From the IMG/VR virus record IMGVR_UViG_3300024503_000207, positions 1-35,068 of that record: a stretch of DNA of 35,068 bases; one strand, 5' to 3'. Every line of letters begins with the position of its first letter. Positions within the stretch are counted from its first letter, which is position 1. Origin of the DNA: a virus. Positions 7,539 to 24,844 of this stretch are shown in pieces. The position numbers were made by a program, and so were the translations under genes. Under the pieces are notes generated by a model. It was not told the origin of the DNA. It did not search any database and was given only the letters and a program-made list of their open reading frames with translations.

Positions 7539-7546
7539 AATAAATA
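7539..7546 (+). promoter_or_regulatory. possible late promoter box (AATAAATA) before the fourth fibre gene
   Basis: The 45-base gap before the gene at 7573 holds AATAAATA, one base off the T4 late consensus, 26 bases upstream of the ATG. This is a better distance for a promoter plus a short leader than the box at 472. A GGGA stretch before the ATG could be the ribosome site. The call rests on sequence similarity and position only. Confidence 0.4.
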
Positions 7547-7572
7547 TATAAACATTTTGGGACTATTAAACT

Positions 7573-9381: not shown

Positions 9382-9382
9382 T

Positions 9383-10288
9383 ATGACTACAAACGGATCA
9401 GATATCTTATCTTCTGATTATAATTCTATCAGAGCCAAAGCAGTATCGTTGTTAGGCACAGGTTCAGGGCAACGTGGATATAATCAGACGATTCAATCGT
9501 CCGATGTGTTTGCAGGTAATCAAATCACTAAAGCCCAATGGGACGCATTGCGTTATGATATTGTTAATATTAAGTACCATCAGGATGGTGCTGTTCCTAA
9601 CATAGTAACTATTAACTCCGGTGATTTAATTGGATACGGAGCATCTTATCCTAATAACAATTATGACACAATAATTAATTCTGCAGTAGAAAATAAGTTT
9701 AATATTTCTCCAAGTACTTCCACAGTAACAACAAAAATAGGCCAAACAACAACATCGACTTGGTCTTCATCAGCCACAGTAACAGTTACAGTAACATTCT
9801 CCTCATCTGACGAAGCAAGATATTTCTTCAACAGTGGAGGAAAAATTAGAGTATCGTCGGCTTTTTCCGGAAATACATCAACATTACAAAATGGAGCCTG
9901 GGCTTATTTGTTATTAACTGTAGGTACAGTATCGTTTGGAGCAAATACTCATCCAACATTAAATTATTACACTATGACTAATTCCTACCAAACGGTTTTT
10001 AGTCAAGCTCAAAGTACACCGTATTCTGCAAATAATTACAGCATAGAAGTTAAAACAGACGTAGCTGATAATTCAGAAGGTACTGCAAAAATATTATATT
10101 TTAAAATAACATTAAATGACGGATATACCGATCCAAGTCCAGGAAATCCACCTCCTCCGGGCGATTCTGTTAGCGGGACACTTTCGGTTGCTATTTCAGA
10201 ATTAAAGGCTTCGGGAACACTATTACCAACCGGAAATTGGACAATAACTAGTCCTACATATTCAATTTCTAGTTATTCAGTTTATTAA
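9383..10288 (+). CDS. Putative virion protein, 301 aa, paralogue of the next gene
   Basis: Begins one base after the stop of the last fibre gene. The N-terminal ~75 residues (SDYNSIRAKAVSLLGTGSG, then QWDALRYDIVN and YHQDG) look helical and are shared with the next gene. The rest is Ser/Thr/Asn-rich and beta-prone, with the shared motif ARYFFNSGGKIRVSS and a proline-rich linker (PSPGNPPPPGD) near residue 250 before a final beta segment. No enzyme signature is visible. Position at the end of the fibre block and composition suggest a structural or fibre-associated adhesin. I recall similar hypothetical proteins in marine T4-like phages, but no function. Confidence 0.65.
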   Translation: MTTNGSDILSSDYNSIRAKAVSLLGTGSGQRGYNQTIQSSDVFAGNQITKAQWDALRYDIVNIKYHQDGAVPNIVTINSGDLIGYGASYPNNNYDTIINSAVENKFNISPSTSTVTTKIGQTTTSTWSSSATVTVTVTFSSSDEARYFFNSGGKIRVSSAFSGNTSTLQNGAWAYLLLTVGTVSFGANTHPTLNYYTMTNSYQTVFSQAQSTPYSANNYSIEVKTDVADNSEGTAKILYFKITLNDGYTDPSPGNPPPPGDSVSGTLSVAISELKASGTLLPTGNWTITSPTYSISSYSVY

Positions 10289-10304
10289 ATAATTAAATAA
10301 CGAC

Positions 10305-11225
10305 ATGGCTGTTAATGATCTAATTAAAGTTGCGGATTACAATTCTATTCGTGCAAAAGTGGCTCAGGTATTTGGGACCGGCTCAGTAACCTACGGTTAC
10401 GGACAAACATTACTAAGCAGCGATGTTTCAGTAAGCAGCAAAGTTACAATTAATGAATGGGCAAATTTAAAATATGATATAATAAATGCTTATGTACATC
10501 AAAACGGAACACTTCCTACTATTTTAACAGTAAACGAGGGAGGTACTGTACGTTACAGTACAACAGATGCTCCAGTTACAACGTATGATACTCTTGCCAC
10601 ATCTATAGAAACTAATAGATTTTCAGTAGGAGCTGGTTTATCATTAGTTACCAGTACGGTGTCAACTTCTAGAAACGGATCCTGGAGCAATTCTGCAAAG
10701 GCAACTGTGCAATTTTATTGGGCCAATGCTACTCAAGCAAGACATTTTTTTAACAGTGGCGGAAAAATTCGAGTATCTGCTTCTTTAGGAACAGACGGTA
10801 CTGCATCTGCACAAAATCAAAAGTGGAGAGAATTACTAGCAGCAGTTGGTTCTAGAGATTTTGGCGGATCGACATCTACAACTCCGGCAAACGGAGCAAG
10901 TTGGTACCAGTGTAATAATTCATTCCAAACATATTATAGTGCCAATGCTTCAAGTCCATACGGAAGCAATTCTATTCAATTAAAATCTAGAGTTGTTGAT
11001 CAACCTTTGAATGTAAACGGACTTGCTGCGTCTGGCGAAATCGAAATAAATTTAGTTGACGCATACTCCGATCCAGGTTTTCCTCCACCAGGGGACTTAG
11101 TTGACGGAACAGTAACAATGAATGTTAGTGTAGTTTATCCAACCGGAATCCTTTACCCTTTAGGAACAGGCAATTTTACTGTTACAAATCCAACGTTTAG
11201 TATTGGATCAATCACGTTCTCTTAA
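10305..11225 (+). CDS. Putative virion protein, 306 aa, paralogue of the previous gene
   Basis: A tandem duplicate of the preceding gene: ADYNSIRAKVAQVFGTGS, EWANLKYDIINAYVHQNG, ARHFFNSGGKIRVSAS and the proline linker FPPPGDLVDGT occur in the same order at similar positions. The central parts have diverged considerably, which is the usual pattern for surface-exposed structural proteins under diversifying pressure. No catalytic motif is seen. It is the last gene of the structural block; a run of seven T follows its stop at 11226-11232, but no stem precedes it, so a terminator is not called. Confidence 0.65.
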   Translation: MAVNDLIKVADYNSIRAKVAQVFGTGSVTYGYGQTLLSSDVSVSSKVTINEWANLKYDIINAYVHQNGTLPTILTVNEGGTVRYSTTDAPVTTYDTLATSIETNRFSVGAGLSLVTSTVSTSRNGSWSNSAKATVQFYWANATQARHFFNSGGKIRVSASLGTDGTASAQNQKWRELLAAVGSRDFGGSTSTTPANGASWYQCNNSFQTYYSANASSPYGSNSIQLKSRVVDQPLNVNGLAASGEIEINLVDAYSDPGFPPPGDLVDGTVTMNVSVVYPTGILYPLGTGNFTVTNPTFSIGSITFS

Positions 11226-11250
11226 TTTTTTTCTCCCTACAATCCCACAA

Positions 11251-11258
11251 CATAAATA
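11251..11258 (+). promoter_or_regulatory. late-promoter-like box (CATAAATA)
   Basis: CATAAATA is one base off the T4 late -10 consensus. It lies in the 58-base gap that separates the structural block from the modification cassette, 25 bases upstream of the ATG at 11284. Its last four bases are also the first four of a perfect palindrome. A TTGGAG ribosome site follows at the palindrome's far edge. Confidence 0.55.
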
Positions 11259-11274
11259 ATGTGCGCACATTATT
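11255..11274 (+). repeat. perfect 20-bp palindrome overlapping the promoter box
   Basis: The half-site AATAATGTGC is followed at once by its exact reverse complement GCACATTATT. If transcription starts 6-7 bases after the promoter box, the start falls at the centre of the palindrome. This fits a protein-binding operator on DNA better than an RNA hairpin. In RNA, an 8-bp stem with a GCGC loop is possible only if transcription starts further upstream. Confidence 0.8.
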
Positions 11275-11283
11275 GGAGATTGT

Positions 11284-11631
11284 ATGGACGACCTTTTGAA
11301 AAAATCGTTAGACTTTTCTAACTACCAACAAACTTTTTCAATTCAACGTAAAATCCTTAAAGAAAAAATTGAAGCCAAATTAACATACGGTGTTAATGGT
11401 GGAATATTTTATATTGATCAAACACTTCTAACTTTTGTTGAGATGCTTTGCAATAAAGGAAGGACAGATAGCATTATTCTAGATAAAAATAACACACCGA
11501 TTTTAATCGAAAGTTTAGAAGATTTTAAAAATGAAATTTTTAATAGATATTTTGAATCGTCAAATGAATATTATACGGCCTATCAAAATTTAAAGAAAAG
11601 CCGATCTGTTGAAAAATTATTAGAACAATGA
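11284..11631 (+). CDS. Small conserved phage protein of unknown function, 115 aa
   Basis: First gene of the modification cassette. It is hydrophilic, without membrane segment or signal peptide. The N-terminal part is helical (SLDFSNYQQTFSIQRKILKE), followed by GGIFYIDQTLLTFVEML, a short VILDKNNTP-type turn (here IILDKNNTPILIE), and a charged helical end (YQNLKKSRSVEKLLEQ). I recall similar sequences next to glycosyltransferase and radical SAM genes in other marine phages, but no assigned role. A TTGGAG ribosome site precedes the ATG. It overlaps the next gene by ATGA, suggesting coupled translation and a shared task. Confidence 0.65.
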   Translation: MDDLLKKSLDFSNYQQTFSIQRKILKEKIEAKLTYGVNGGIFYIDQTLLTFVEMLCNKGRTDSIILDKNNTPILIESLEDFKNEIFNRYFESSNEYYTAYQNLKKSRSVEKLLEQ

Positions 11632-12488
11632 ATACAGGTATTTTAATTTATGCTCACAATAATCGAACTCTCGATTACGCATTAATGTCTTTAATATCTG
11701 GAGGCCTTGCTAAAAAAAATTTAAATGTTCCTGTATCTTTAGTAACTGATCCTTCGACTGTTGAGTGGATGAAAGAATCAAACATATTTGAAAAAGCAAT
11801 GTCAGTATTTGAAAATTTAATTATTATAGATAGACCGATTACAAACAATCAAAGAAAATTACACGACGGTGAGGAGTCTACAACTGTGCCGTTTATAAAT
11901 TCTAATCGACATAGTGCCTGGGAATTAACACCTTACGATAGAACATTATTAATTGACAGTGATTATTTAATTTTTTCAGATCATCTAAACAAGTACTGGA
12001 ATGTTGATTGCGATGTTATGATAGGTGAATCTATTAACGACATTTATAGTAATGATAGATTAGGTTATTTAGATAAACATATATCTGATACTGGAATTAA
12101 AATGTATTGGGCAACCACTGTAATGTTTACTAAGAATGAAAATTCTAAACTATTTTTTGATATGGTAGGTTTAATAAAAGAAAATTATGAATATTATTCA
12201 GACATTTTTGGATTTAATCCTACACAGTATAGAAATGATATTGCTTTCAGTATAGCAAAACACATATTAGACGGATTTGAACAATCCTCAGTCAACTCGC
12301 TTCCGCCAGTGTTAACAACATTAGACAAAGATATTTTGTACAGCGTAGACAATGACAAATTAAAATTTTTAATAAATTACAATCTTGACAGTAATTATTT
12401 TCCTTCGTCTGTGAGCAATATAGATATTCATATTATGAATAAACAAAGTATTATTAGGCACAAAGATAAATTATTGGATTTAATATGA
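11628..12488 (+). CDS. Putative GT8-like (GT-A fold) glycosyltransferase, 286 aa
   Basis: The N-terminus ILIYAHNNRTLDYALMSL and the segment LTPYDRTLLIDSDYLIF (about residues 103-119) match the start and the DxD (here DSD) metal/nucleotide-sugar site of GT-A enzymes related to family 8. Typical length for a single GT-A domain. It is followed by a clear paralogue, and the two differ most outside the fold core. Donor sugar and acceptor are not predictable. Linked on both sides by ATGA overlaps, so translation is probably coupled. It could be a nucleotide-diphospho-sugar binding protein that has lost activity, but the DSD is present. Confidence 0.7.
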   Translation: MNTGILIYAHNNRTLDYALMSLISGGLAKKNLNVPVSLVTDPSTVEWMKESNIFEKAMSVFENLIIIDRPITNNQRKLHDGEESTTVPFINSNRHSAWELTPYDRTLLIDSDYLIFSDHLNKYWNVDCDVMIGESINDIYSNDRLGYLDKHISDTGIKMYWATTVMFTKNENSKLFFDMVGLIKENYEYYSDIFGFNPTQYRNDIAFSIAKHILDGFEQSSVNSLPPVLTTLDKDILYSVDNDKLKFLINYNLDSNYFPSSVSNIDIHIMNKQSIIRHKDKLLDLI

Positions 12489-13324
12489 ATTTTGGATATT
12501 TGTTAATTGTTGCCGAAAACAAAACTGTAGATTATTTACAGTTGGCATATGCATTGGCACTTAGTATAAAAAACACACAAAAAGAAGGCTATGATAAAGT
12601 TGCCATAGTCATTGACGACAAATCTAAATTAGACAAATTAAAAAGCTCTTGGGTATTTGATCACGTTATCGAATGGAGTCAAGAAACATTCTGGGATGGT
12701 AGAAGTTGGATGGATAAACTAACTCCATTTGACCATACGGTGTGTCTTGACGTCGATATGTTATTTTTTAGAGATTACAGCCACTGGATTGATTATTTTG
12801 TTGAAAATTCTGAATTATATGTAGCTAATGACACGTATACATATCGTGGAGATTTAGTAACTAACGATTTTTATAGAAAAACTTTCACAAAAAATGATCT
12901 TCCAAATCTTTATTCTATGTGGACATTCTTTAAAAAAGATTCTAATTTAGCAGACGACTTTTTTAAGTTAGGTCGATATATAATTAAAAATCCAACTGAG
13001 TATTCTAATTTGTTTTTAACACAATATAAACCAAAGGTGTTAGGAACTGATGAAGCATTTGCCTTGTCTGCAAAAATTTTAGATATTGAGGCAGAAATAG
13101 CCTATAAATTAGAATTTCCTAAAATTGTACATATGAAGCCAATGATACAAAATTGGCCTTGGCCGTCTGACAAGTGGAGCAATCATATTGGATTTTATTT
13201 GAATAAAAAAGGAAATTTAAAATTAGGAAATTTTCAACAACATAATATTGTTCATTATGTTGAAAAAGATAAAATTACAGAAGAAATAGTTAGCATTTTA
13301 GAGGAAATAGTATGGAAGAAATAG
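12485..13324 (+). CDS. Putative GT8-like (GT-A fold) glycosyltransferase, 279 aa
   Basis: Paralogue of the preceding gene. It has FGYLLIVAENKTVDYLQLA at the N-terminus, then KLTPFDHTVCLDVDMLFF (about residues 79-96), which carries the DxD site as DVD. The end includes IVHMKPMIQNWPW, where a His of the GT-A metal site is often found. A full single domain with no signal peptide, so probably cytoplasmic. It starts in ATGA overlap with the upstream gene and overlaps the next by 13 bases. Two adjacent paralogues could add successive sugars to one acceptor; that is inference. Confidence 0.7.
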   Translation: MNFGYLLIVAENKTVDYLQLAYALALSIKNTQKEGYDKVAIVIDDKSKLDKLKSSWVFDHVIEWSQETFWDGRSWMDKLTPFDHTVCLDVDMLFFRDYSHWIDYFVENSELYVANDTYTYRGDLVTNDFYRKTFTKNDLPNLYSMWTFFKKDSNLADDFFKLGRYIIKNPTEYSNLFLTQYKPKVLGTDEAFALSAKILDIEAEIAYKLEFPKIVHMKPMIQNWPWPSDKWSNHIGFYLNKKGNLKLGNFQQHNIVHYVEKDKITEEIVSILEEIVWKK

Positions 13325-13935
13325 TAATTGATGATTTTGATGTATGGTTAGCTAATTTTAAAATTGCTGAAGTTAATTACGTTGCAGTCTTCGATCCTTT
13401 TTCCGGAAAAGTAATTTCCGTAGGGCCTGACACAGCATTTAAAGATGAAAAACATAAAGTAAACATTGACACCTTAATTGCTGAATCTATTATTGATGGA
13501 AAATTGGGTATTGAAAAGTGTTTGGTTGATATTAACTCTAATGAATTTGAAATTTCTGAAATTCGTACATTAACAAAGTTAGACGATATTTTACATAGAG
13601 TTGTTTCTTTAAAATATTCCGAAATAGAAAAACCAGATGTGTACATAACACACATAGCTGATAGCGGTGTTTTAATTATAGAGTTATCTGAAGAATTTGG
13701 CGGAACAAAAAAGGTAAACCAAGAAGTTAAAAAACGAAATTTTGTTTGGGACGGAGATACTGAGATGAAATTTTACATCACCGAATATAACGATCCTAAC
13801 TTGATTTTTGATACAATTTCTGTTAAAATTAATGAACTTATCGGAGATTCCAAGGTTATTAACGATATAGATTATAGTACGTTTAGCGTTTATACAAGAC
13901 GTCTGTTTAAAAATTATGTGATTGAATACAAATGA
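13312..13935 (+). CDS. Unknown protein within the glycosyltransferase cluster, 207 aa
   Basis: I do not recognise a family with known function. Visible segments are VNYVAVFDPFSGKVISVGP at the N-terminus, an Ile/Val-rich beta core, NFVWDGDTEMKFYITEYND in the C-terminal half, and the end SVYTRRLFKNYVIEYK. There is no membrane segment, signal peptide or Cys cluster. A GAGG ribosome site lies inside the previous gene, and the gene joins the next by ATGA. Its conserved placement between glycosyltransferases suggests a partner or substrate of the cassette. I recall similar phage proteins, always hypothetical. Confidence 0.6.
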   Translation: MEEIVIDDFDVWLANFKIAEVNYVAVFDPFSGKVISVGPDTAFKDEKHKVNIDTLIAESIIDGKLGIEKCLVDINSNEFEISEIRTLTKLDDILHRVVSLKYSEIEKPDVYITHIADSGVLIIELSEEFGGTKKVNQEVKKRNFVWDGDTEMKFYITEYNDPNLIFDTISVKINELIGDSKVINDIDYSTFSVYTRRLFKNYVIEYK

Positions 13936-14831
13936 AAACTATAGAATTTGATGTTATCTTTTTAAGTTACGACGAACCCAATGCAGATTTACACTACGCT
14001 GATCTTTGTACCAAAGTGCCTTGGGCAAAACGTGTACACGGTGTTAAAGGCAGTGATCACGCACACAAAGCAGCAGCAGAACAAAGCGAAACTGATTGGT
14101 TTATTACTGTTGATGCAGATAATATTGTAGATCCTAGATTCTTTAATATTGATTTAGATATGAGCGATCCAAAGATACAGGTCTATGGATGGTGCGGCCG
14201 CAACGTTATCAATGGCCTGCGTTACGGTAATGGTGGATTAAAAATCTGGAAAAAAGATTTTGTTCTTAATATGAAGACACACGAGAACTCGGATAGTGAT
14301 AGAGGACAAGTAGATTTTTGTTGGGAAGATGGTTATCGAAATTTTCCTTTAAGTTTTAGTGATAGCATTATAACTGGAAGTCCGTTCCAGGCCTGGAGAG
14401 CAGGATTTCGTGAAGGCGTAAAAATGACTCTCCTTGACGGTGTCAAAGTACCTCCTATGGAAATTAAACAACACATATGGTGGCACAATATTCATAGATT
14501 ACGTATGTGGTCAACAGTTGGAGCTCACGAAGAACACGGTACTTATGCAGTATTAGGTGCTCGTATGGGAACCTGGATGACTAATTGTACAGATTGGAAT
14601 TATGTTGACGTTAGAGATTTTGAAATCCTAAGAGAAATATATGAAACAAAAGTTAATCATACCTTTGTAGAAGAAGATGCACAAGATTACGGAACTAAAA
14701 TTAAACACGAATTAGGATTAGACTGGCCGTGGTTAGATGCACGTCAAAGCAAATATACATTAGATTTATACAATGAAACAATGAATCTAAACGATACATA
14801 TTTTAAGATGCCGGTACCTGCAAATGTATGA
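13932..14831 (+). CDS. Stand-alone GT-A (GT2-like) glycosyltransferase, 299 aa
   Basis: The N-terminus FDVIFLSYDEPNAD is followed by AKRVHGVKGSDHAHKAAAE and WFITVDADNIVD (about residues 56-67), where DAD is the DxD-like metal/nucleotide-sugar site. The block GLRYGNGGLKIWKK matches a later block of the same family. The C-terminal half (QAWRAGFREGVKM, WSTVGAHEEHGTYAVLGARMG) is shared with the end of the next protein, giving an internal check on the family. No signal peptide, so probably cytoplasmic. Acceptor unknown. It overlaps both neighbours (ATGA upstream, 8 bases downstream). Confidence 0.75.
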   Translation: MKTIEFDVIFLSYDEPNADLHYADLCTKVPWAKRVHGVKGSDHAHKAAAEQSETDWFITVDADNIVDPRFFNIDLDMSDPKIQVYGWCGRNVINGLRYGNGGLKIWKKDFVLNMKTHENSDSDRGQVDFCWEDGYRNFPLSFSDSIITGSPFQAWRAGFREGVKMTLLDGVKVPPMEIKQHIWWHNIHRLRMWSTVGAHEEHGTYAVLGARMGTWMTNCTDWNYVDVRDFEILREIYETKVNHTFVEEDAQDYGTKIKHELGLDWPWLDARQSKYTLDLYNETMNLNDTYFKMPVPANV

Positions 14832-16413
14832 TATTTTTTATGTTTCTAAAACTGAAGGAAATGACGATACTTGGCTAAAAATAAAATCTAAGTATCCGTT
14901 ATCTCAACGTTTGACAAACATAACAACATATGATCAGATTAAATCTAAATCTTTTACAAAAATGTTCTGGGTTATCTGGGACGATATAGATTTAGTAGAT
15001 ACGTTTAATTTAACAGAGTACAAAGCCACTAAGTGGGACGATATGTATGTTCACGTTTTTAAAAACAGTGAACACTATGATGGTATATGTTTGTTTCCTA
15101 AATCAACTACAATTTCTCAAAGAGAATTTGATAATAGATTTTTTACAGACAAAAAAGAAATAGATATAGTTGCCAGTGTTCCGTTAGGATACGATAAATT
15201 TAATATTAATAATTACGATGATTATTTAAATGCTATTGAACATTCTAATACAGATATGTTTTGGGCAATTTGGCCTGACGTAAATGTCAAAAAAGATTTT
15301 AAATTTAATTATAAAGTTCCTAAGCATAATTCTAATATTGTCCATATTTTTAAAAATGGAGAATTTTTTGACGGCATTTGCTTATTTCCAAAAAATGTAA
15401 AAGTTTCTAAGAGAGAATTTTATCATAGATTTTTTGCAGATAAAAAAGAAATAGATATTGTTGCAAGTACACCGAAAAAATATAGTGTATATTCTCCTAA
15501 TACATTTGAAGAATATCAACAAATTAAAGATGATATGTTTTGGGTCGTATGGCCCGAGACTAAAATTATAAATGAATCGGTACTTGATTTATACTTTAGT
15601 CATCATAATACATATGATCGTAGAGAAAATCATATTTTTAAAAATTTATGTAATGATGTTGAGTCTTATATAAGCGGCATGGTTCTTTGCAGTAAGTATA
15701 AACAGATGTCCCCAACAGAGTTTGAAAGTCAATATGCCACTGATAAAAAAGAATATAATATTGTAGCAAGCAAATTTCAATATCCAGTATACAATATATC
15801 AACATACGATCAATATTTAGAAATTGTTAAAAACGAAAAACAAAAAATGTTTTGGTGCATATGGCCTAACATTGAAATTTTAGATAATACTATTTTTGAT
15901 TTATATTTTGATCCTAACGACGGCAAATATGATCACGATAGAGAAGAAAATCATATGTTTAAAAATTTATGCAATGATAAAGAATCCTATTTAAATGGTC
16001 TTGTTCTATGTTCAACATCTAAAATTATTTCTCAAAGAGAATTTAATAGACGATATTTAATTGATAAAAAAGAACACAATCGTGTTGTTAGCCGATATAG
16101 ATATAATAGATATACGTTAACTACCTATGATGAATATCAACAAATTATAGAAAAAGAAACTCAACCTTTGTTTTGGGGAATATGGCCAGAAATTGATATA
16201 ACTGACGAAACAGTTTTTGATTTATATTTTGATCCTAACGACGGCAAGTCCGATCACGATAGAAAAGAAAATCATATGTTCAAACATATGTTTAACGGTA
16301 CAGAAATTTATATTAACGGGTTAGCATTATTTTCAAAGACAAAGGTTATAGGTCATCGAGAATTTAAACATCGATTTTTAATAGAAAGAAAAGAACACGA
16401 TCGTTTAGTTTCT
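14824..16413 (+). repeat. five tandem protein-level repeats, ~290-350 bp each
   Basis: Approximate units: 14824-15177, 15178-15468, 15469-15771, 15772-16092 and 16093-16413. Units 4 and 5 are the most alike and share FDLYFDPNDGK and the DNA around gatcctaacgacggcaa, which points to a recent duplication. Units 1 and 2 share DGICLFPK and KKEIDIVAS. The array therefore seems to have grown by more than one duplication event. Confidence 0.75.
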
Positions 16414-17106
16414 AAGCATCGATTATATGACGTTGTTTTTATCAGTTACAACGAACCTAATGCAGATGAAAATTATAATAGATTGCTGGTCAAGTGTCCT
16501 CGAGCAAAAAGAGTCCACGGTGTTAAAGGAATACATCAAGCGCATATTAAGGCAGCTGAAATGTGTAACACTGATATGATATGGATAGTTGATGGCGATG
16601 CAATCATTGAAGATAATTTTAATTTTGATCTAACTATGTCTAGTTATGACATAGATTGTGTTCACGTGTGGCGTAGTAGAAACCCAATAAACGATTTAGA
16701 ATATGGTAACGGTGGTGTAAAATTATTACCAAGACTATTAACATTATCAATGGATGTAACAACTCCGGATATGACAACTTCTATATCTAAAAAATTTAAA
16801 GCTATGGATGATGTATCGAACATTAATTCGTTTAATACAGATGAGTTTGCAACCTGGAGATCAGCATTTAGAGAATGTTGTAAATTATCAAGTCGTGTAA
16901 TTGAACGTCAATATGAAGATGAAACACAACAAAGATTAGATGCTTGGTGTTCATTAGGAATTGATAAACAATATGGCAAGTATGCAATTGCAGGTGCTAT
17001 TGCAGGACGTAAGTACGGAGAAGAAAATAAAAACAATCCCGATGCATTAAGAAAAATTAATGACTTTGAATGGTTAAAGGAACAGTTTAGTGGAATACAA
17101 CCGTAA
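14824..17106 (+). CDS. Multi-repeat protein: five degenerate GT-A modules plus one intact GT-A domain, 760 aa
   Basis: Residues ~531-760 form a GT-A domain closely resembling the preceding 299-aa protein: YDVVFISYNEPNADEN, AKRVHGVKGIHQAH, MIWIVDGDA (585-593, DxD as DGD), LEYGNGGVKLLPR and ATWRSAFREC. Residues 1-530 hold five units of about 95-107 residues. Each has an FWxxW core (47-54, 145-152, 238-245, 342-349, 449-456), an H-[IMV]-FK block and a closing KKE-type block ([DE][KR]KE) (109-118, 206-215, 307-316, 414-423, 521-530). The units line up with the first half of the GT domain, but the DxD site is replaced by WDD, WPD, WPE, WPN or WPE, so they are probably catalytically dead and serve in binding or scaffolding. 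The acceptor is unknown. Confidence 0.75.
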   Translation: MYDIFYVSKTEGNDDTWLKIKSKYPLSQRLTNITTYDQIKSKSFTKMFWVIWDDIDLVDTFNLTEYKATKWDDMYVHVFKNSEHYDGICLFPKSTTISQREFDNRFFTDKKEIDIVASVPLGYDKFNINNYDDYLNAIEHSNTDMFWAIWPDVNVKKDFKFNYKVPKHNSNIVHIFKNGEFFDGICLFPKNVKVSKREFYHRFFADKKEIDIVASTPKKYSVYSPNTFEEYQQIKDDMFWVVWPETKIINESVLDLYFSHHNTYDRRENHIFKNLCNDVESYISGMVLCSKYKQMSPTEFESQYATDKKEYNIVASKFQYPVYNISTYDQYLEIVKNEKQKMFWCIWPNIEILDNTIFDLYFDPNDGKYDHDREENHMFKNLCNDKESYLNGLVLCSTSKIISQREFNRRYLIDKKEHNRVVSRYRYNRYTLTTYDEYQQIIEKETQPLFWGIWPEIDITDETVFDLYFDPNDGKSDHDRKENHMFKHMFNGTEIYINGLALFSKTKVIGHREFKHRFLIERKEHDRLVSKHRLYDVVFISYNEPNADENYNRLLVKCPRAKRVHGVKGIHQAHIKAAEMCNTDMIWIVDGDAIIEDNFNFDLTMSSYDIDCVHVWRSRNPINDLEYGNGGVKLLPRLLTLSMDVTTPDMTTSISKKFKAMDDVSNINSFNTDEFATWRSAFRECCKLSSRVIERQYEDETQQRLDAWCSLGIDKQYGKYAIAGAIAGRKYGEENKNNPDALRKINDFEWLKEQFSGIQP

Positions 17107-18523
17107 TATAAAAGGCAACGAGTTGAAAGAAATAAATGGCAAGTATGAATCTAGATACTTTGCCGACGCTGACTACGTTCAAAAAAAACTTAATGAAGTA
17201 AGTCCTAGTTTTTGTTTGGCTAAATGGTATAATGTTAGTATACATATTCCTACAGGTAAGACACACAGTTGTTACCATCCTAGAGCACATCAAGTTCCAT
17301 TAGAAGAAATACGTATTGATGTTAGTGCATTGCATAATACAAAGTATAAAAAAGAACAACGAAAGTTAATGTTAGAGGGAACTCGTCCTAACGAATGCGA
17401 ATTTTGTTGGCAAATTGAAGATAGTGGAACACAGTTAAGTGATCGTGCTTACCGTAGCAAGGATGTGTGGGAAGATGGTTTAATTGATGAAGCACAGTTA
17501 ATAGGCTACTTGGGTAATTCTAATCCAAGATATGTCGAAGTTAATTTTAACCAAGCCTGTAATTTTAAATGTAGTTATTGCAGTCCTCATCTATCTACTG
17601 CCTGGCATAAAGACGTTCAAGCAAATGGAGCATTTATTTTAAAGGATAGATGGCACAATGATATCAATTGGATGAAAAGTCTTAATATTGATAATGGTCC
17701 TGATAATCCCTATTTGTTAGCATTCTGGGAATGGTTGCCTCAAATATACCCAACACTACATACTTTCCGTATGACTGGCGGCGAGCCGCTAATGGACAAG
17801 AACACATTTCGTATGTTTGATTACGTTAAAGAACATCCTAAAAAAGATTTACATTTAAGTATAACTAGTAATTGTTGTCCACCTGGCGATCAGTGGAAAA
17901 AGTTTATGACAAGTCTTAAAGAAATTACTGATGCAAACGCCATTGATCATTTTATGTTATATTGTTCTTTAGATTCTTGGGGAGAACAAGCAGAATATAT
18001 TCGCAACGGGATGGATTTTAATTTACTGTATAACAACGTATGTGATTATTTGCAAAATAGTGAAAAACATAGTTTAACATTTATTATTACTTTTAATGTG
18101 TTAAGTTATACAGGATTTTATAACTACATTGAAAATATTCTTAAATTGAGAAAACAATTTAATAAAGGTCGTCAATTAATTTGGTTTGATGTTCCTCAAT
18201 TAATGGATCCTGATTTTTTAAATCCTAAATTAATGCCTGAACTAGTTTCTGAATTAGAGCGAACAATTGACTTTATGAAATACAATCCGGAAACACGTTG
18301 GAATGAATTTAAAGGATTTAGTGATTTTGAAATCAGTAAAGTTCAACGATTAGTTGATTGGATTAAATCGAATACAGGATTTAATACAGAGACAGCTAAA
18401 GAAAATTTTTATTTATTTTTTAGCCAGCACGACGAGCGAAGAGGTACAAATTTTTTAAATACATTTCCAGAACTAACTAATTTTTGGAAACAATGCGAGG
18501 CAATATGCAAGAAAGTAGAGTGA
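17090..18523 (+). CDS. Radical SAM enzyme with N-terminal twitch-type Cys motif, 477 aa
   Basis: The radical SAM cluster site is Cys157-x3-Cys161-x2-Cys164 (ACNFKCSYCSP), followed by MTGGEPLMD, the SAM-binding GGEP motif. Before it, FCLAKW, SCYHPRAHQVP and NECEFCWQIED supply Cys42, Cys61, Cys103 and Cys106, the layout of a 'twitch' domain that can hold an auxiliary iron-sulphur cluster. The C-terminal ERRGTNFLNTFPEL segment recurs in the next gene. The substrate is unknown; related SPASM/twitch enzymes mostly modify peptides or proteins, some act on small molecules or sugars. The start is a GTG preceded by AAAGGA at good spacing, inside the previous gene. Confidence 0.85.
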   Translation: MEYNRNIKGNELKEINGKYESRYFADADYVQKKLNEVSPSFCLAKWYNVSIHIPTGKTHSCYHPRAHQVPLEEIRIDVSALHNTKYKKEQRKLMLEGTRPNECEFCWQIEDSGTQLSDRAYRSKDVWEDGLIDEAQLIGYLGNSNPRYVEVNFNQACNFKCSYCSPHLSTAWHKDVQANGAFILKDRWHNDINWMKSLNIDNGPDNPYLLAFWEWLPQIYPTLHTFRMTGGEPLMDKNTFRMFDYVKEHPKKDLHLSITSNCCPPGDQWKKFMTSLKEITDANAIDHFMLYCSLDSWGEQAEYIRNGMDFNLLYNNVCDYLQNSEKHSLTFIITFNVLSYTGFYNYIENILKLRKQFNKGRQLIWFDVPQLMDPDFLNPKLMPELVSELERTIDFMKYNPETRWNEFKGFSDFEISKVQRLVDWIKSNTGFNTETAKENFYLFFSQHDERRGTNFLNTFPELTNFWKQCEAICKKVE

Positions 18524-19866
18524 CATTTATTAAAAATGTTCGAGATAGATTAAACAAAGTAGGTGAAGGGTTTTGTGCAATGAAATGGTTGCACCAAACT
18601 TTATATCTGCACACAGGCGATAACCATAGTTGTTATCATCCACGTCCACACCATATACCATTAGATGAAATAGCAATTGATCCTAGTGCATTACATAATA
18701 CAAAATGGAAAATGCAACAAAGAAAAACAATGTTAGAAGGTGGAAGACCGGAAGAATGTTACTATTGTTGGAACATAGAGGATCTACCAGGCGAACATAT
18801 TAGTGATCGAATGATACATAGCTCTAGTGATTTTTCAGAACCATTGATAGAATCGTTAGCAGAATTGCCGTGGGATGCTCCTATCAATCCGCGGTATCTA
18901 GAGGTCAGCTTTGGTAACGGTTGTAACTATCGTTGCGGATATTGCTGTCCACAAGCTAGTACAATGTGGATGGAAGAAATTAAAAAACACGGCAATTACG
19001 ACCTAACATATAATCAATACGGAATTGAATTTTTAGAACACGGAACATACTATGGACCTAAAGATGAAAATCCCTACATTGAAGCATTTTGGAAATGGTG
19101 GCCTAGTTTACGTAAAGACCTTCATACACTTCGTATTACTGGCGGAGAACCGTTAATGAATCCAGGAGCAATGAAATTTTTTGATTTGCTAGAAGATGAA
19201 CCAGCCCCCCATTTAGAAATTACTCTAAACAGTAATTTAGGAGTTACCTTTGATAGAGTTGATAGATTAATTACTCGAGTTACTAGTTTAGTTAAACAAA
19301 AGAAAATTCGTAAATTTAGTTTTTTTACTAGTATTGATAGTTGGGGCGAACAAGCAGAATATATGCGCACAGGGTTAAAATGCGACCACTGGGAACGCAA
19401 TATGATTGAAGTTATTAAAGCTGGTGCAACTGTTAATTTAATGTGTACCTATAATGTTTTATGTGTGACTAATTTTCAAAAGTTATTACATAAGGTAATT
19501 GAATGGCGTGAAAAGTTTGGATTTGAATCAGTATCCTTTGATACACCGTACCTAAAAGAACCTCCTCACTGGATGATTAACATACTTCCAACAGAGTTTA
19601 TTAAATATCAAGAAGAAACATTACAATTTATTTTAGATAATAAACAATGGTTCACAGATGTTGAGTATGAAAAAATGTTAAGGGTAACTGATTATATGAA
19701 AGAGAACCCAGTTAGTCCTGAAAAAATAAAACAAGGTCAGAGAGATTTTTATTCATTTTTTACAGAAAACGATAAAAGATTAGGAACAAGTTTATTAAAA
19801 ACATTTCCTGAATATACAGAATTCTACAATTACTGTAAAACAATTTATGACAACTATGATAACTGA
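18505..19866 (+). CDS. Radical SAM enzyme with N-terminal twitch-type Cys motif, 453 aa
   Basis: Close paralogue of the previous gene: FCAMKW, SCYHPRPHHIP and CYYCWNIED (Cys24, Cys43, Cys85, Cys88) precede the cluster site Cys140-x3-Cys144-x2-Cys147 (GCNYRCGYCCP), then ITGGEPLMNP. SIDSWGEQAEYMRTGL has an almost identical counterpart in the upstream protein. I chose the ATG at 18505 because GAGG lies five bases before it; TTG 18484 and ATG 18493 are upstream alternatives. The start is 19 bases inside the previous gene. A duplicated pair implies two related substrates, two steps on one substrate, or a heterodimer; the sequence cannot choose. Confidence 0.85.
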   Translation: MQESRVTFIKNVRDRLNKVGEGFCAMKWLHQTLYLHTGDNHSCYHPRPHHIPLDEIAIDPSALHNTKWKMQQRKTMLEGGRPEECYYCWNIEDLPGEHISDRMIHSSSDFSEPLIESLAELPWDAPINPRYLEVSFGNGCNYRCGYCCPQASTMWMEEIKKHGNYDLTYNQYGIEFLEHGTYYGPKDENPYIEAFWKWWPSLRKDLHTLRITGGEPLMNPGAMKFFDLLEDEPAPHLEITLNSNLGVTFDRVDRLITRVTSLVKQKKIRKFSFFTSIDSWGEQAEYMRTGLKCDHWERNMIEVIKAGATVNLMCTYNVLCVTNFQKLLHKVIEWREKFGFESVSFDTPYLKEPPHWMINILPTEFIKYQEETLQFILDNKQWFTDVEYEKMLRVTDYMKENPVSPEKIKQGQRDFYSFFTENDKRLGTSLLKTFPEYTEFYNYCKTIYDNYDN

Positions 19867-21079
19867 AAAAAATAAAAACTCTTGGTGTGTAAATGCGTTT
19901 CACGCAATGAGTGCCAACAATGATGGCAGTACAAAAATGTGCTGTATGATTGTAGATTCTTATCAAAATTTAATGTTTTTTCCTAATAAATTAATGATTG
20001 GTAAAACATCTATCCAAGAAAATTTTAACAATAAAATAGCTGAAAAAATTAGAAATAATCTAGATAAAGGCGTTCGCGATCCGGCTTGTAAATTTTGTTG
20101 GGAAGAAGAAGATGGCGGCAGAAAAAGCAAACGTCAACGAGATAATGATCGATACTTTCACGAAATAGAATGGCGCGATCGAACTCCCTATACTGGCCTG
20201 GCAAAATTTGAATTAAATCTAGGAAACACCTGTAACATTAAATGCAGAACGTGCCATCCTTCTATTAGTTCTTTATGGATGAAAGAAGCCTATGACTTAG
20301 ATCATAGTAGCAAAATGTCTTATAAGGAATATAGCGAAGGGATGAAGAAATATCATCAACAATACGATGAAGACAGTCCATTTTGGGATGACCTTGCTAA
20401 TAATTTAGAAACAATAAAACAGTTTGATTTTTATGGCGGCGAACCGTTCCTGAGCAAGAAGATGTGGGAAATATTACGTATTTGTGTCGACAAGGGTTAT
20501 GCAAAAGATATAGAGTTGCATTATAATACAAATGGAACCACCTGGCCAAAAGAAACAGAATTATGGCAGCATTTTAAATATATTAATCTAAGTTTTAGTA
20601 TTGACGGAATTGGAGAACAATTCGAATATATGAGATTTCCAGCCAATTGGAATGAAGTTTGTATTAATATGCAACAGGCAAGATCTTATAAAGATACATA
20701 CAAAAATATGTCCATTAGTTGGTGTATTACCTTAAGTTCTATTAACATATTTTACCTTCCTAACATTTTAAATGAATATTATAAATCTTACCCTGACCTA
20801 GGAGTTTATCTAAATTTAGTACACGGCCCAGAACATTTTAATATTGGTAAAATGCCAGACAATGTTAAAGAAGAAGTAATATCTAGATTAGAAAAAATTC
20901 CAAAAGAATACGTAAGTGCGTGGTATCAAATTCCTGGAATCATTGGATTTATTAAAAACGGTAAATTTAAAGATGCTGTTTGGCAAACATTTATTTCAAC
21001 AATAAAAAAACATGACCAGTACAGAAATCAAGAATTTTCAAAGGTATTTCCTGAGTATTCGAAAATAATAGGTATGTAA
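19847..21079 (+). CDS. Radical SAM enzyme, twitch-type, 410 aa
   Basis: Third radical SAM gene, more distant from the first two. The cluster site is Cys129-x3-Cys133-x2-Cys136 (TCNIKCRTCHP), followed by DFYGGEPFLSKKMW. The N-terminal part has SWCVNAFHAM, MCCMI and CKFCWEEEDGG (Cys14, Cys32, Cys33, Cys81, Cys84), consistent with an auxiliary cluster. SIDGIGEQFEYMRFP matches the position of SIDSWGEQAEYMR in its neighbour. The substrate is unknown. The ATG at 19847 is inside the previous gene; an ATG at 19856 is equally possible, and neither has a strong ribosome site. Confidence 0.85.
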   Translation: MTTMITEKNKNSWCVNAFHAMSANNDGSTKMCCMIVDSYQNLMFFPNKLMIGKTSIQENFNNKIAEKIRNNLDKGVRDPACKFCWEEEDGGRKSKRQRDNDRYFHEIEWRDRTPYTGLAKFELNLGNTCNIKCRTCHPSISSLWMKEAYDLDHSSKMSYKEYSEGMKKYHQQYDEDSPFWDDLANNLETIKQFDFYGGEPFLSKKMWEILRICVDKGYAKDIELHYNTNGTTWPKETELWQHFKYINLSFSIDGIGEQFEYMRFPANWNEVCINMQQARSYKDTYKNMSISWCITLSSINIFYLPNILNEYYKSYPDLGVYLNLVHGPEHFNIGKMPDNVKEEVISRLEKIPKEYVSAWYQIPGIIGFIKNGKFKDAVWQTFISTIKKHDQYRNQEFSKVFPEYSKIIGM

Positions 21080-21080
21080 T

Positions 21081-22334
21081 ATGAACTTTTGGAATTTTAA
21101 TGAACTAACTCAGATGCACATAGAATTGACTAATGCTTGCAATGCTGCTTGTCCTATGTGCGTAAGATTTTATAATAATAGTCCTTTGACACGGCCCGAT
21201 CTAGAAATAGGTCAAATAACATTAGAACAATTTAAAAAATATTTTCCTCCTGAAATTATTCAACGTTGTAGTTTAATATTATTTTGTGGTGTACACGGGG
21301 ATCCTTGTGTTGCTAGAGATATGTACGAAATATGTGAATATATAGATTCTGTAAATCCTAATATTTCTGTTAGAGTCAACACAAATGGCGGAATGCGCAG
21401 ATCTATCTGGTGGGAAAAATTAGGAAAATTATTTTCTAAACATCCTTGGAGCAGTTCAAATTATTGGTCAGTTACATTTAGCATAGACGGTCTTGAAGAT
21501 ACTAATCACATTTATAGACGAAATGTTGATTGGAAAATTCTTATGGAAAATGCAGAATCGTTTATTAATGCTGGTGGTCCTGCTATATGGGATTTCCTTA
21601 TTTTTAAACACAACGAACATCAGATAATTGAAGCAAAACGTTTTTCTGAAAAGATGGGTTTTAAAGAGTTTGTTCCTAAAAAAGCACTAGGCGTTGACAA
21701 CGGAACAGAGCTAGTACATTTGGTAGCTCTTAATAAAGAAGGAGAACTTGATTATACTATAGAAGCTCCTGTTGATCCAAAAAATAGAAATTTAGAAAAT
21801 CCAACAGGTGTATCTCCAATAAAATATTATCCTTTTAAAATAGATAACTATCGATCATTAAAAGAAACAAAATCTACCGGTAAAGATTTTCAAAATCAAG
21901 TGTTAACTGTTTACGAAGATAAAATTTTAAAAACTGATAATACAAAATATGACGGGTGCAAAATTAATTGCAAATCAAAAGTTTGGACAAATGGAAAAAA
22001 AGAAATATTTGTTGATAATTTTGGTCGAGTAATGCCTTGTTGTTATATTGGTACTCGATTAAATGGATTATATTCAGAAGCAGCAACATTGCAATTACAT
22101 AAACATATGAATGATTACGGATGGGATAAGTTTGATCTAAATATTCATTCGTTAGAAGAAATTTTATCAAGTGGACATTTAGATCGTGTATTTGCAGATA
22201 GTTGGTCTAAGGACACTATTAAAGATGGAAAATTACTTTATTGCTCTGAAACCTGTGGCGTTCATAGCAGTATTGATAGAATTTTTACTCACGAAATAAT
22301 TAAAGAAAATCCAAGATGGGCAAAAACTGTATGA
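21081..22334 (+). CDS. Radical SAM enzyme with C-terminal SPASM-like Cys cluster, 417 aa
   Basis: The cluster site is near the start: Cys20-x3-Cys24-x2-Cys27 in ELTNACNAACPMCVRF. Unlike the three genes before it, the extra cysteines are in the C-terminal third (KYDGCKINCKSKVW, then VMPCCYIG and YCSETCGVH), as in SPASM domains, which bind auxiliary iron-sulphur clusters. SIDGLEDTNHIYRRN is a typical post-core radical SAM segment. So the cassette ends with an enzyme of a different architecture, suggesting a separate step. It starts one base after the previous stop and shares ATGA with the next gene. Confidence 0.85.
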   Translation: MNFWNFNELTQMHIELTNACNAACPMCVRFYNNSPLTRPDLEIGQITLEQFKKYFPPEIIQRCSLILFCGVHGDPCVARDMYEICEYIDSVNPNISVRVNTNGGMRRSIWWEKLGKLFSKHPWSSSNYWSVTFSIDGLEDTNHIYRRNVDWKILMENAESFINAGGPAIWDFLIFKHNEHQIIEAKRFSEKMGFKEFVPKKALGVDNGTELVHLVALNKEGELDYTIEAPVDPKNRNLENPTGVSPIKYYPFKIDNYRSLKETKSTGKDFQNQVLTVYEDKILKTDNTKYDGCKINCKSKVWTNGKKEIFVDNFGRVMPCCYIGTRLNGLYSEAATLQLHKHMNDYGWDKFDLNIHSLEEILSSGHLDRVFADSWSKDTIKDGKLLYCSETCGVHSSIDRIFTHEIIKENPRWAKTV

Positions 22335-23911
22335 GTTTAGAAATATTATATTCTGGTCAAGTTAGGTTTGCAGAAGCTGCTAAACGTCAAGCAGAATGTT
22401 TTAAAGATGTAAATCACAATAATATTTTTAGCGTACTTGATTATCTGCAAGATTCGCATTCATCTCTTTCATTAAAATCTACTCATATGATAGAGGAAGA
22501 TAAAACTTTTGAATTTGCATTAGACCACTTAAAAAACAAATTAAAACCTACTGTTGTCGATGTCTACAATAGGAGTCATTTGGTAGAATGGTATAAGTCT
22601 GCATACAAGGTCAGTGAAGAAGATAATTACAAAGTTTTTTATATTCAGCATATATATTCTTTTATACAAGGATTAAAAAAAACTAAATCCGAAGTTGTAA
22701 TATCAATTACAACTGATTTAATAGTTGAAGGTGATATTAATGCATTTTTAAAAAATGTAACTCAAGATAAACCAAAAGTTTGGGTACATAGACATTCAGA
22801 TTTAATTACTCCTCACGTTATAGCTTTAAACAGGCCTGCAATAGATACTATATGCCAACGCGGAGATGAATTTTTAAATAATTTTTTTAATCTGTATTCT
22901 AACTCAGAATGGGAGAGATCGGAAAAAATATGGGAATTATTGTTTGAATTTTGTAATATTGAATTTAATAGTTTGTCAAATATATATCAATGTAAAATAA
23001 GACCTCTTATGACAATTAATGATGTAGACAAATCAATAAATCAATTGTCGATGATGTTTAAAAATTGGAGACAATACAAAGATATAAGCACAAATAGATC
23101 AAATTTTAAATTTGAAAAATCTAAAGTAACGAGAATTGTTGCATATGGTTGTAGTTATACAGCCGGAGATGAATTTTTAGATTATCAATTAAATCCCGAT
23201 GCAGAAAAAATTAAAAGAGAAAAAGGAATAGAAGCTTGGTTTAAAATAAAAGAATCTTATGATCCTTTATTAAGAAAAAAACTAATAGAAAAACAAAAAT
23301 TATTAGCTTGGCCTGCAATATTAGCAAATAAATTGCAGGTAGAATTATCTAATAGATCTGAAGGAGCAAATTCTCTTCCTAATATTTTGTATCAAATTGA
23401 ACATGATATTTCAGAAGGTCTAATATCTGATACTGATTTAGTCTTTGTAGGATTGACTTCTATTGAGCGTTCTATATATTTTGGCAAACAGAAATCAAAA
23501 GCGGTATTATTAAAAATGAAAGAGCAATTTCCTTTACACCTTCAAGATTATCAAGCGCCTATAATAGAATTTAAAAATGCTATGTATATGTTTTATTTCT
23601 ATTATCTATGTTGGTCTCGATTAATACAAATATCAGAAAAAAATTTAAACAACAAACTGTTAATTGTTCCTTGCATAAACGACGGAGGTTATAAACATTT
23701 TAAAGCTTCTTTTGAAGAGTATTTCAAAAAAGATATTGCTAGAATGCAACAAGAATGTTTATCACATCCTTCTTTTATTACAGATAAAAATCTCTATGAT
23801 TTTGTAAATGATAAATCTACCGAAATTCACGGATGCGGACATCCTACTCAAATAGTACACAATAGATTTGTTGAGAATATTTTAAAAGTTTTAAAAGATT
23901 CCGTTAGTTGA
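22331..23911 (+). CDS. Two-domain protein with C-terminal SGNH-hydrolase-like domain, 526 aa
   Basis: The C-terminal half begins with VTRIVAYGCSYTAGDEF, which fits the block I G-x-S of SGNH/GDSL-like hydrolases (Ser275); a late HGCGHPTQIVHNRF segment could give the catalytic His. Such domains in glycan pathways are often O-acetyl esterases or transferases. The N-terminal ~250 residues (LEILYSGQVRFAEAAKRQ, VFYIQHIYSFIQGLKK, VISITTDLIVEGD) faintly resemble GT-A-like sugar-processing domains, with weak support. I chose the ATG at 22331 because it overlaps the upstream stop as ATGA; an ATG at 22316 would add five residues. Last gene of the cassette, meeting a convergent gene. Confidence 0.65.
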   Translation: MSLEILYSGQVRFAEAAKRQAECFKDVNHNNIFSVLDYLQDSHSSLSLKSTHMIEEDKTFEFALDHLKNKLKPTVVDVYNRSHLVEWYKSAYKVSEEDNYKVFYIQHIYSFIQGLKKTKSEVVISITTDLIVEGDINAFLKNVTQDKPKVWVHRHSDLITPHVIALNRPAIDTICQRGDEFLNNFFNLYSNSEWERSEKIWELLFEFCNIEFNSLSNIYQCKIRPLMTINDVDKSINQLSMMFKNWRQYKDISTNRSNFKFEKSKVTRIVAYGCSYTAGDEFLDYQLNPDAEKIKREKGIEAWFKIKESYDPLLRKKLIEKQKLLAWPAILANKLQVELSNRSEGANSLPNILYQIEHDISEGLISDTDLVFVGLTSIERSIYFGKQKSKAVLLKMKEQFPLHLQDYQAPIIEFKNAMYMFYFYYLCWSRLIQISEKNLNNKLLIVPCINDGGYKHFKASFEEYFKKDIARMQQECLSHPSFITDKNLYDFVNDKSTEIHGCGHPTQIVHNRFVENILKVLKDSVS

Positions 23912-24196
23912 ATCTTTGATATCTTTTTTTAATTTATCGATATCGACTTTAAAATCTATTTTTTTAATTTCTTCTTTATATTCTTGCAGCGTATTAATTA
24001 ATGTGTCTGCAATTGATTCTGGAGTTTGTTTTACTAATTCTGTTTTAATGTCAATCTCCCATACTCTGCCATCGCTAAATTCTAGATGTATTAATTCTAG
24101 ATAAGCGACTGGCATAGTATTCATATAGAGATCTTCAAAGACCTCTGGCCACTCTTTTATTAAGTGGCGTGGAGGCTTAAACAACGGATTAGGCAT
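23891..24196 (-). CDS. Small conserved phage protein of unknown function, 101 aa
   Basis: Last gene of the leftward arm. The N-terminus has PPRHLIKEWPEVF; the middle is beta-prone (LELIHLEFSDGRVWEIDI); the C-terminus is a charged, probably helical or coiled tail (TLQEYKEEIKKIDFKVDID). No catalytic motif is seen. It starts 8 bases inside the upstream gene and its 3' end overlaps the convergent + strand gene by 21 bases. T4 has a small late-transcription protein, gp33, near RNase H; position and size are compatible but I see no sequence basis for that name. Confidence 0.6.
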   Translation of the reverse strand: MPNPLFKPPRHLIKEWPEVFEDLYMNTMPVAYLELIHLEFSDGRVWEIDIKTELVKQTPESIADTLINTLQEYKEEIKKIDFKVDIDKLKKDIKDSTNGIF

Positions 24197-24842: not shown

Positions 24843-24844
24843 GA

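Follow-up and report, generated by a model that had tools for sequence, protein, structure and literature searches.

Islands that combine tail fibres with sugar-modifying and radical SAM (rSAM) enzymes have been described in T4-type phages. In pelagimyophages, they contain fibres, GT8 enzymes and rSAM cassettes, and a modification of the O-chain against co-infection was proposed (PMC7029224). Fibre islands with glycosyltransferases (GTs) and rSAM enzymes are thus not new in themselves. Four GT orthogroups are part of the core of the 'moraphages', for which virion glycosylation is mentioned as one option (PMC12619734), and mycobacteriophages carry glycans on capsid and tail tube (Freeman et al. 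2023, as cited in PMC12619734). Here, a cassette of eleven genes, A-K, located directly downstream of a tail-fibre locus, is analysed in the virus record IMGVR_UViG_3300024503_000207 of IMG/VR. The record is 35,068 bp long (the window), and the study region spans positions 11284-23911. The first six genes form a block of fixed order with an rSAM gene behind it, and this unit may glycosylate virion proteins late in infection.

The hypervariable island (host recognition cluster, HRC) of pelagimyophages and cyanomyophages resembles the locus in that it belongs to T4-type phages and comprises tail fibres, GT8 enzymes and added rSAM cassettes. The window, too, combines fibres, GTs and rSAM enzymes in one island. 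The HRC differs in being described as nonsyntenic and located between VrlC and gp14, with freshwater members that lack rSAM and lipopolysaccharide genes (PMC7029224). Compared with the HRC as described there, the window phage has a syntenic six-gene block (A-F, the remainder not being syntenic), a late-promoter-like box and a repeat GT. Mycobacteriophage virion glycosylation likewise involves phage GTs; there, glycans on virion proteins were observed, whereas the present system is known from its genes alone and adds rSAM enzymes. A published description of the A-F block was not found in the literature searched, which did not cover supplements.

The phage is uncultured, its group is known from environmental DNA alone, and it is also present on a contig of 134,843 bp. 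The capsid protein is 72% identical to that of Sinorhizobium phage Phosso, 71% to Vibrio phage 2.275.O and 67.5% to the Pseudomonas PA5oct group, which makes the phage a relative of T4-type jumbo phages. A chimeric assembly is ruled out by gene I, which is encoded in nine IMG/VR loci, seven of them at 100%. The study region holds eleven open reading frames (ORFs) on the + strand:

11284..11631, +: gene A, 115 aa, no known family, first gene of the fixed block by gene order
11628..12488, +: gene B, 286 aa, GT8-like putative glycosyltransferase, DSD at 110-112 (motif, weak glycogenin match)
12485..13324, +: gene C, 279 aa, GT8-like putative glycosyltransferase, DVD at 89-91 (motif, phrog_1903)
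13312..13935, +: gene D, 207 aa, no known family, fast evolving but kept (conservation)
13932..14831, +: gene E, 299 aa, putative GT-A glycosyltransferase related to the GT domain of F, DAD at 61-63 (homology)
14824..17106, +: gene F, 760 aa, N-terminal module, four repeats of 97-107 aa and C-terminal GT-A domain at 532-670 (model, profiles)
17090..18523, +: gene G, 477 aa, N-terminal-twitch rSAM enzyme, CX3CX2C at 157 (NF033640, 309.8 bits)
18484..19866, +: gene H, 460 aa, N-terminal-twitch rSAM enzyme, CX3CX2C at 147 (NF033640, 296.1 bits)
19847..21079, +: gene I, 410 aa, N-terminal-twitch rSAM enzyme, CX3CX2C at 129 (NF033640, 309.2 bits)
21081..22334, +: gene J, 417 aa, rSAM enzyme with a possible SPASM-like C-terminus, accessory (Pfam)
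22316..23911, +: gene K, 531 aa, unassigned N-terminal part and SGNH-like C-terminal domain with GCSYTAGDE ... HPTQ, accessory (motifs)

An earlier, sequence-only reading of this DNA had counted ten genes, although its own list sums to eleven. The mostly overlapping ends that it had reported are borne out, as nine of the ten junctions overlap (in order -4, -4, -13, -4, -8, -17, -40, -20, +1 and -19). Gene H starts with TTG, and in-frame ATG codons are located a few codons downstream.

Co-conservation was assessed in three sets of viral contigs, namely the best 80 of at least 587 relatives found by the fibre protein f5, the best 80 by similarity to E, and the best 80 by similarity to A (gene A has relatives at 470 IMG/VR stretches). 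Loci are partly shared between the sets, and some contigs are nearly identical; only the f5-centred set, with 58 distinct E proteins, is independent of the cassette, and 53 of its loci are long enough for an A-F count. F was scored as present by its GT domain, and genes as contiguous if no other profiled gene was located between them. All 53 f5-centred loci with at least 7 kb behind f5 contain each of the six genes A to F. Among loci with at least 5.8 kb behind A, A-F are contiguous in 47/47 f5-centred, 45/45 A-centred and 55/55 E-centred cases. The profiled gene before A is f6 or f7 throughout (77/77, 65/65 and 56/56 in the f5-, A- and E-centred loci, respectively). Even the overlaps are typically kept, the commonest from A to F being -4 (60/76), -4 (71/75), -13 (48/70), -4 (58/68) and -8 (38/61).

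Behind F, an rSAM gene is found in all 45 f5-centred loci with at least 1.7 kb of sequence there (44 by profile, L186 by Pfam). The next ORF after F is a same-strand rSAM gene by profile in 39 of these, the Pfam-found rSAM gene in L186, and an opposite-strand gene in five. An rSAM gene adjoins F in 18/18 complete F-to-n1 intervals, which were filtered by distinct F protein and include one contig twice (L012/L222) as well as close variants. After this first rSAM gene, the intervals contain a changing set of further rSAMs, SGNH-motif proteins, a weakly GT9-like protein (E=0.016), DUF6492 and, in two relatives, NAD-dependent epimerases (PF01370, E 2.2e-42 and 1.3e-39). Counted on either strand in the same 53 f5-centred loci, G is present in 20, H in 45, I in 16 and J in 5; many loci end before the later genes, and the G/H/I labels are approximate in relatives since the rSAM subtypes cross-match. 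The cassette consists of a fixed core, namely A-F and one rSAM gene next to F, and an exchangeable tail that includes J and K. The single coordinated pathway that the sequence-only reading had proposed for all genes, with gene order in related phages as its check, is retained for A-F and one rSAM gene, which form a unit by synteny and are linked by GT-rSAM fusions. It does not extend to the whole cassette, in which the number and type of rSAM genes as well as J and K are gained, lost or inverted.

Two phage loci and one Oligoflexia contig each contain a single ORF that encodes both an F-type GT and an rSAM enzyme (all by profiles):

L220:5188-7113, -: fusion of 642 aa, GT at 1-227 followed by an N_Twi-type rSAM domain, CX3CX2C kept
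L186:15869-17785, +: fusion of 639 aa, GT at 1-226 followed by an N_Twi-type rSAM domain, CX3CX2C kept
L365:8804-10708, +: fusion of 635 aa, J-type rSAM at 1-396 followed by an F-type GT at 396-631

In both phage loci, the fused gene takes the place of F directly behind E, without a repeat array. Such fusions are rare (three cases among the 51 bacterial and 3,788 viral ORFs that matched at least one profile). That the two domains occur fused in either order points directly to a common target of GT and rSAM enzyme, which probably share a pathway.

F itself had been described as a GT-A repeat protein, and the confident model (pLDDT, predicted local distance difference test, 87.2) displays the four repeats and the GT-A domain at 532-670. 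The N-terminal module looks to us like a degenerate GT-A start. GT-A folds match the C-terminal domain with Z 9.2-11.6, mostly over 125-141 residues. The peptide/protein GTs SunS, ThuS and GalNAc-T are among the fold matches, as are nucleotidyltransferases of GT-A fold and the polysaccharide enzymes discussed below; given this mixture, the fold does not name the acceptor. The domain is 31-37% identical to E (seven rows), and D590/D592 are invariant in 21 F rows, with DXD spelled out in 68/108 F proteins of the wider ORF set. A profile built from 55 repeat units matches the GT domain of F in 21/21 rows (16.9-24.4 bits) and no E row significantly, and in hhalign it aligns around the DXD motif and the stretch behind it (P 3.7e-5, probability 71%). 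The units of about 105 aa appear to derive from half a GT-A domain. Complete F proteins (42 distinct sequences with the start MYDIFYVS) form a length ladder of 345-355, 441-457, 542-557, 643-667, 755-771, 875 and 972-973 aa, which indicates zero to six units, i.e. a copy-number-variable array of half-GT modules. The repeat protein and the GT-rSAM fusions would be new enzyme architectures for phages.

DXD-type motifs are present in B, C and E as well as in F. In B and C, the Asp pairs are invariant in 22 rows each, and D.D occurs anywhere in the ORF (position not bound) in 117/117 B and 121/121 C proteins. Neither protein has a Pfam match to any GT8 model; against PDB, the B profile matches glycogenin alone (weak, E=0.16), and C matches phrog_1903, a family of unknown function (E=1.3e-4). 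These matches, the DXD motifs and our reading of the sequence lend weak support to the two GT8-like enzymes of the sequence-only reading, of which the motifs stand while no family model confirms GT8. Its single GT-A enzyme corresponds to E, where D61/D63 are invariant in 19 rows (the motif is spelled out in 108/115 E proteins of the wider ORF set) and homology to the C-terminal domain of F makes a GT-A fold likely. Its two unknowns of 115 and 207 aa, A and D, are still without a known family. For D (model pLDDT 82.5), fold searches gave no informative solved match (best Z 5.1), and three viral models matched below E 0.001, two of them uncharacterised and one without a name. PDB profile searches with C, D, E and F gave no match. 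A tblastn search of phage records was run with A, C, E, G and I: in 50,697 records, A (at E 0.1), C and E had no match and G had none at 1e-5. I matched 40 records, nearly all of them distant Vibrio phage rSAMs with about 20-27% identity; no annotated fibre was found in the two of these regions opened, K566 and KVP40.

The four rSAM enzymes of the earlier reading are confirmed, G, H and I as members of the NCBIfam family N_Twi_rSAM (NF033640, curated cut-off 170 bits) and J by the Pfam Radical_SAM model (33.3, cut-off 29.5). J is not a member of N_Twi_rSAM (42.1 bits), and its Pfam SPASM match is weak (E=0.062). The CX3CX2C motif is found in all four and, among relatives' ORFs of more than 350 aa, in 26/26 G-, 110/110 H- and 59/59 I-type proteins. 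N_Twi_rSAM is named for its domain layout, and its entry listing gives no function. Among many weak matches, I resembles a His-Xaa-Ser maturase (E=3.1e-4); H had no match at 0.1 by phmmer against PDB. As for K, its motifs and a weak profile match to the SGNH esterase Est2A, the best in PDB (E=0.0014), tentatively suggest the SGNH domain that had been assigned to it, and no Pfam or other family model supports the label. Two further SGNH-like proteins, recognised by eye from GDSF/GDSH motifs and without a Pfam match, are encoded at 30290-30880 (-) and 30853-31683 (-) of the window.

The T4 late promoter is TATAAATA. The one promoter-like box that had been noted before the cassette was found, and its position is conserved:

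11251..11258, +: T4-late-promoter-like box CATAAATA, 33 nt 5' of gene A
11255..11274, no strand: 20-bp perfect palindrome AATAATGTGC/GCACATTATT, overlapping and following the box (sequence)

Among 97 distinct upstream sequences of A, the pattern [ACT][AT][AT]AATAA occurs 28-38 nt 5' of the start in 89 and the exact ATAAATA in 68. The narrower pattern [AT][AT]AAATAA is found in 63/97 against 3.6 expected from base shuffles, a control that covers this pattern and not the broader one. In the window, exact TATAAATA is rarer than chance (1 found, 6.7 expected), so the argument for a late promoter rests on the conserved position before A. On the 134-kb contig, 15/20 NATAAATA sites are located at most 75 nt before a same-strand ORF start (ORFs of at least 90 aa; a count without shuffle control). 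A predicted hairpin below -2 kcal/mol at the box, e.g. ATAAACT-ACGC-AGTTTAT, is seen in 32/89 relatives and is not general. Sigma-70 promoters and intrinsic terminators were rejected, as both are at chance level (79 sigma-70-like sites found and 84.3 expected at positions 9000-25000; 5 terminators found and 6.3 expected). The box would drive A-K together with the fibres late in infection.

On the 134,843-bp contig, A-K are the 3' end of a same-strand run and are followed by opposite-strand genes; the corresponding run in Phosso opens with genes annotated as encoding baseplate wedge proteins and with one for a giant structural protein of the virion, and the window phage encodes an upstream protein of 4,618 aa. 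The fibre locus f1-f7 is located directly upstream of A-K. Matches to phage tail or virion families were obtained for f2 (which also carries a tail-collar domain), f3 and f5. The family matched by f1 has no known function, and a collar domain match of f4 is below its cut-off. The last two genes of the locus are:

9383..10288, +: f6, candidate acceptor or partner, with a homologue in Pseudomonas phage Cassandra
10305..11225, +: f7, directly 5' of A, cross-matching the f6 profile

At the site behind the fibre locus, two cultured relatives carry a different rSAM/SPASM cassette and five others examined carry none. In Cassandra, f1, two f4/f5-like proteins and an f6 homologue come before genes of the opposite strand, and nothing in the 30.6 kb read matched A-K. 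In Vibrio phage 2.275.O and RaK2 (by profiles) as well as XaC1 and 121Q (by annotation only), f1 and one further gene precede opposite-strand genes, and the surrounding gene order is rearranged in RaK2, XaC1 and 121Q. Phosso and Atu_ph07, by contrast, encode four rSAM-like genes behind an f5 homologue, three of which carry this annotation in each phage; peptide maturases are among the best matches of these genes, with scores far under the cut-offs. Between the first two of them lies a protein of about 300 aa with the tail CHTSCHASCHSSRSRR or CHSSCHASCHNSRSRR (CHxSCHASCHxSRSRR):

L369:24300-25217 and L370:25062-25949: CHxS-tail proteins of cultured jumbo phages, among rSAM-like genes

The protein was matched in three phage records, two of which are the same phage. 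Its tail presumably resembles those of His-Xaa-Ser maturation systems, and a modification of a virion protein like that of ribosomally synthesised and post-translationally modified peptides (RiPPs) is possible. Profile comparison of the tail protein with f5, f6, f7, A and D gave nothing. In Atu_ph07, it is gp170 by locus tag, the first coding sequence of cluster 170-215, one of three clusters from which most virion proteins detected by mass spectrometry derive (PMC6102473); gp170 itself may be among those detected. This cassette shares with A-K a related phage background, the site behind the f5 homologue and several rSAM-like genes in a run; it differs in that the regions read hold no A-F profile match and no N_Twi score above the cut-off. 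It is not homologous to A-K, yet locates rSAM chemistry here too, next to a probable virion protein.

Taken together, A-F may work in the cytoplasm as a glycosylation line whose substrates, late in infection, are newly synthesised virion proteins, most probably those of the fibre locus, with exchangeable rSAM/SGNH tailoring. This reading fits best, and we consider it about as probable as not. f6 and f7 are the first candidate acceptors because their genes always adjoin the block upstream. The late-promoter-like box would switch on A-K together with the fibres; the GT8-like enzymes B and C and the GT-A enzyme E would begin and extend a short glycan on protein side chains, and F might dock along an elongated acceptor via its row of half-GT units and add further sugars. 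The rSAM enzyme beside F would then modify this substrate by radical chemistry, and the final structure of the sugar or the glycosylated protein could be varied by additional rSAM, SGNH and nucleoside diphosphate (NDP)-sugar genes (epimerases). A and D could be adaptor or assembly proteins. Expression time, every activity, donor, acceptor and order of steps are all what we infer. A more specific version, in which six fixed genes glycosylate the fibres, the dead half-GT row is a docking ruler that hands over to the rSAM enzyme, and the fibre chemistry, and with it the receptor choice, of each individual phage is set by the exchangeable rSAM/SGNH end, is put forward tentatively and is in this full form rather doubtful. 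If virion proteins are indeed modified, host-range parts of a group of phages bear sugars or radical-made changes that are invisible to sequence-based host-range models, and the variable operon end would be the site where this chemistry diversifies. The idea can already be tested in the cultured relatives that carry another rSAM cassette at this site.

Several observations weigh against virion protein glycosylation. No fibre or other family was matched by f6 and f7 in the family searches, and the f6 homologue of Cassandra without a cassette indicates that f6 does not need A-K. In a search for acceptor sites, f6-family tails carried YS[LFI]S in 67/114 only. A place in a late locus is no proof of late function, and in one relative B and C are separated by 1.5 kb. 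The chemistry of N_Twi_rSAM enzymes was not found in the literature searched. Compared with two related contigs, E comes 8th among 88 and 14th among 70 proteins in identity (86% and 84%, medians 65% and 74%); both contigs were fetched by similarity to E, which favours E. It is more conserved there than f2-f7, A-D and F, while H is 44% identical in the first contig and 90% in the second. With such core-level conservation against divergent fibres and D, a fibre-specific enzyme might be expected to differ. Bacterial homologues, described below, add that no rSAM gene was seen beside E in 13 Roseobacter-type loci and that the same-strand neighbour analysed there (L345) is a group-1 GT. Finally, the top Foldseek matches of F are polysaccharide and teichoic-acid enzymes, namely chondroitin polymerase and the wall-teichoic-acid enzyme RmlT.

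The last point leads to the best-surviving alternative, in which the O-chain or capsule of the infected cell is changed and co-infection is blocked. GT8-like enzymes, SGNH-motif proteins and NDP-sugar epimerases resemble polysaccharide loci, a group-2 GT is near in one Bdellovibrionota relative (L359), and surface remodelling was argued for the GT8 enzymes of the comparable pelagimyophage island (PMC7029224). The make-up of A-K speaks otherwise: no 19-residue segment reaches a Kyte-Doolittle value of 1.6, so no membrane segment is predicted, and flippase, polymerase and lipid-carrier families are missing among the Pfam matches of the window proteins. A late-promoter-like box would be poor timing for excluding rivals, and the block is located behind the fibre locus in every locus examined. 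Host-surface remodelling is considered rather unlikely. The sequence-only reading had left the choice between decoration of a virion protein and remodelling of the host surface; decoration is favoured because of the late box, the constant fibre-locus position, the lack of membrane segments and the other rSAM cassette in two cultured relatives, although both halves are things we infer.

Alternatively, two separate systems could share one locus, with A-F glycosylating and the rSAM block being a RiPP-like or other modification system plugged into the operon end. The number and type of rSAM genes vary and the genes behind F are on the opposite strand in 5/45 loci while A-F are fixed, two isolates carry the non-homologous rSAM/SPASM cassette with its Cys-His-Xaa-Ser tail protein at the same site, and I weakly resembles a His-Xaa-Ser maturase. 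Against this, GT and rSAM enzyme are fused in two phages and one bacterium, and these fusions lower the two-system explanation and raise virion protein glycosylation with rSAM tailoring; an rSAM gene is present behind F in 45/45 loci, and no tail with at least two Cys was found among the f1-f7, A and D proteins of relatives. Two independent systems are therefore quite improbable. A RiPP precursor is disfavoured by the same screen, which covered these proteins and found no Cys-rich tails.

A third alternative, a hypervariable gene-capture site whose genes are mostly passengers with unrelated uses at a permissive operon end, would fit the differing 3' part (extra rSAMs, J, K, epimerases, SGNH-like and GT9-like proteins) and the empty site of five cultured relatives. 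The constant order and overlaps of A-F, the identity ranks of E and the GT-rSAM fusions speak against it, and it is very improbable. Glycosylation of DNA is disfavoured because of the fibre-locus position.

Homologues of the GTs are also found in bacteria. One genome search with E and the GT domain of F gave 23 loci, with neighbours shown for starts at 4000-16500. Six loci hold an I- or J-type rSAM gene (L346, L349, L359, L360, L365 and L366), and four Bdellovibrionota contigs (L359, L360, L365 and L366) combine an E/F-type GT with an I/J-type rSAM gene in one locus. The Bdellovibrionales-binned L349 has the order f6-A-B-C-(163 aa, no D match)-E-rSAMs, with E 42% identical and an F-type GT on the other strand, and is probably a phage contig; L346, with an F-type GT of 528 aa, may be one as well. 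In L359 and L360, an E-type GT is accompanied by rSAMs of the I and J types and by a QueC-like PP-loop protein. Near the E-like gene of L347 (Roseibium), on the opposite strand at 5106-8030, a caspase-domain/Sel1 protein is encoded (PF00656; only L347 was tested), and ORFs of 967-1072 aa are located at the corresponding place in 11/13 Roseobacter-type loci.

Further genes of the phage lie outside the cassette. An ORF of 101 aa at 23891-24196 (-) of the window converges on the end of K, and an ORF of 101-102 aa on that strand precedes n1 in 18/18 F-to-n1 intervals. Elsewhere in the same phage, a cytidylyltransferase is encoded (PF01467, L099:4917-5360), for which identity to two relatives is 73% and 91% and which might provide an activated donor. 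A QueE-like rSAM protein (28458-29318, -; Pfam below the cut-off), a phosphoribosyltransferase (31898-32389, -; PF00156) and a GTP cyclohydrolase I (33019-33768, -; PF01227, E 4.8e-38) are clustered in the window and possibly belong to a 7-deazaguanine pathway.

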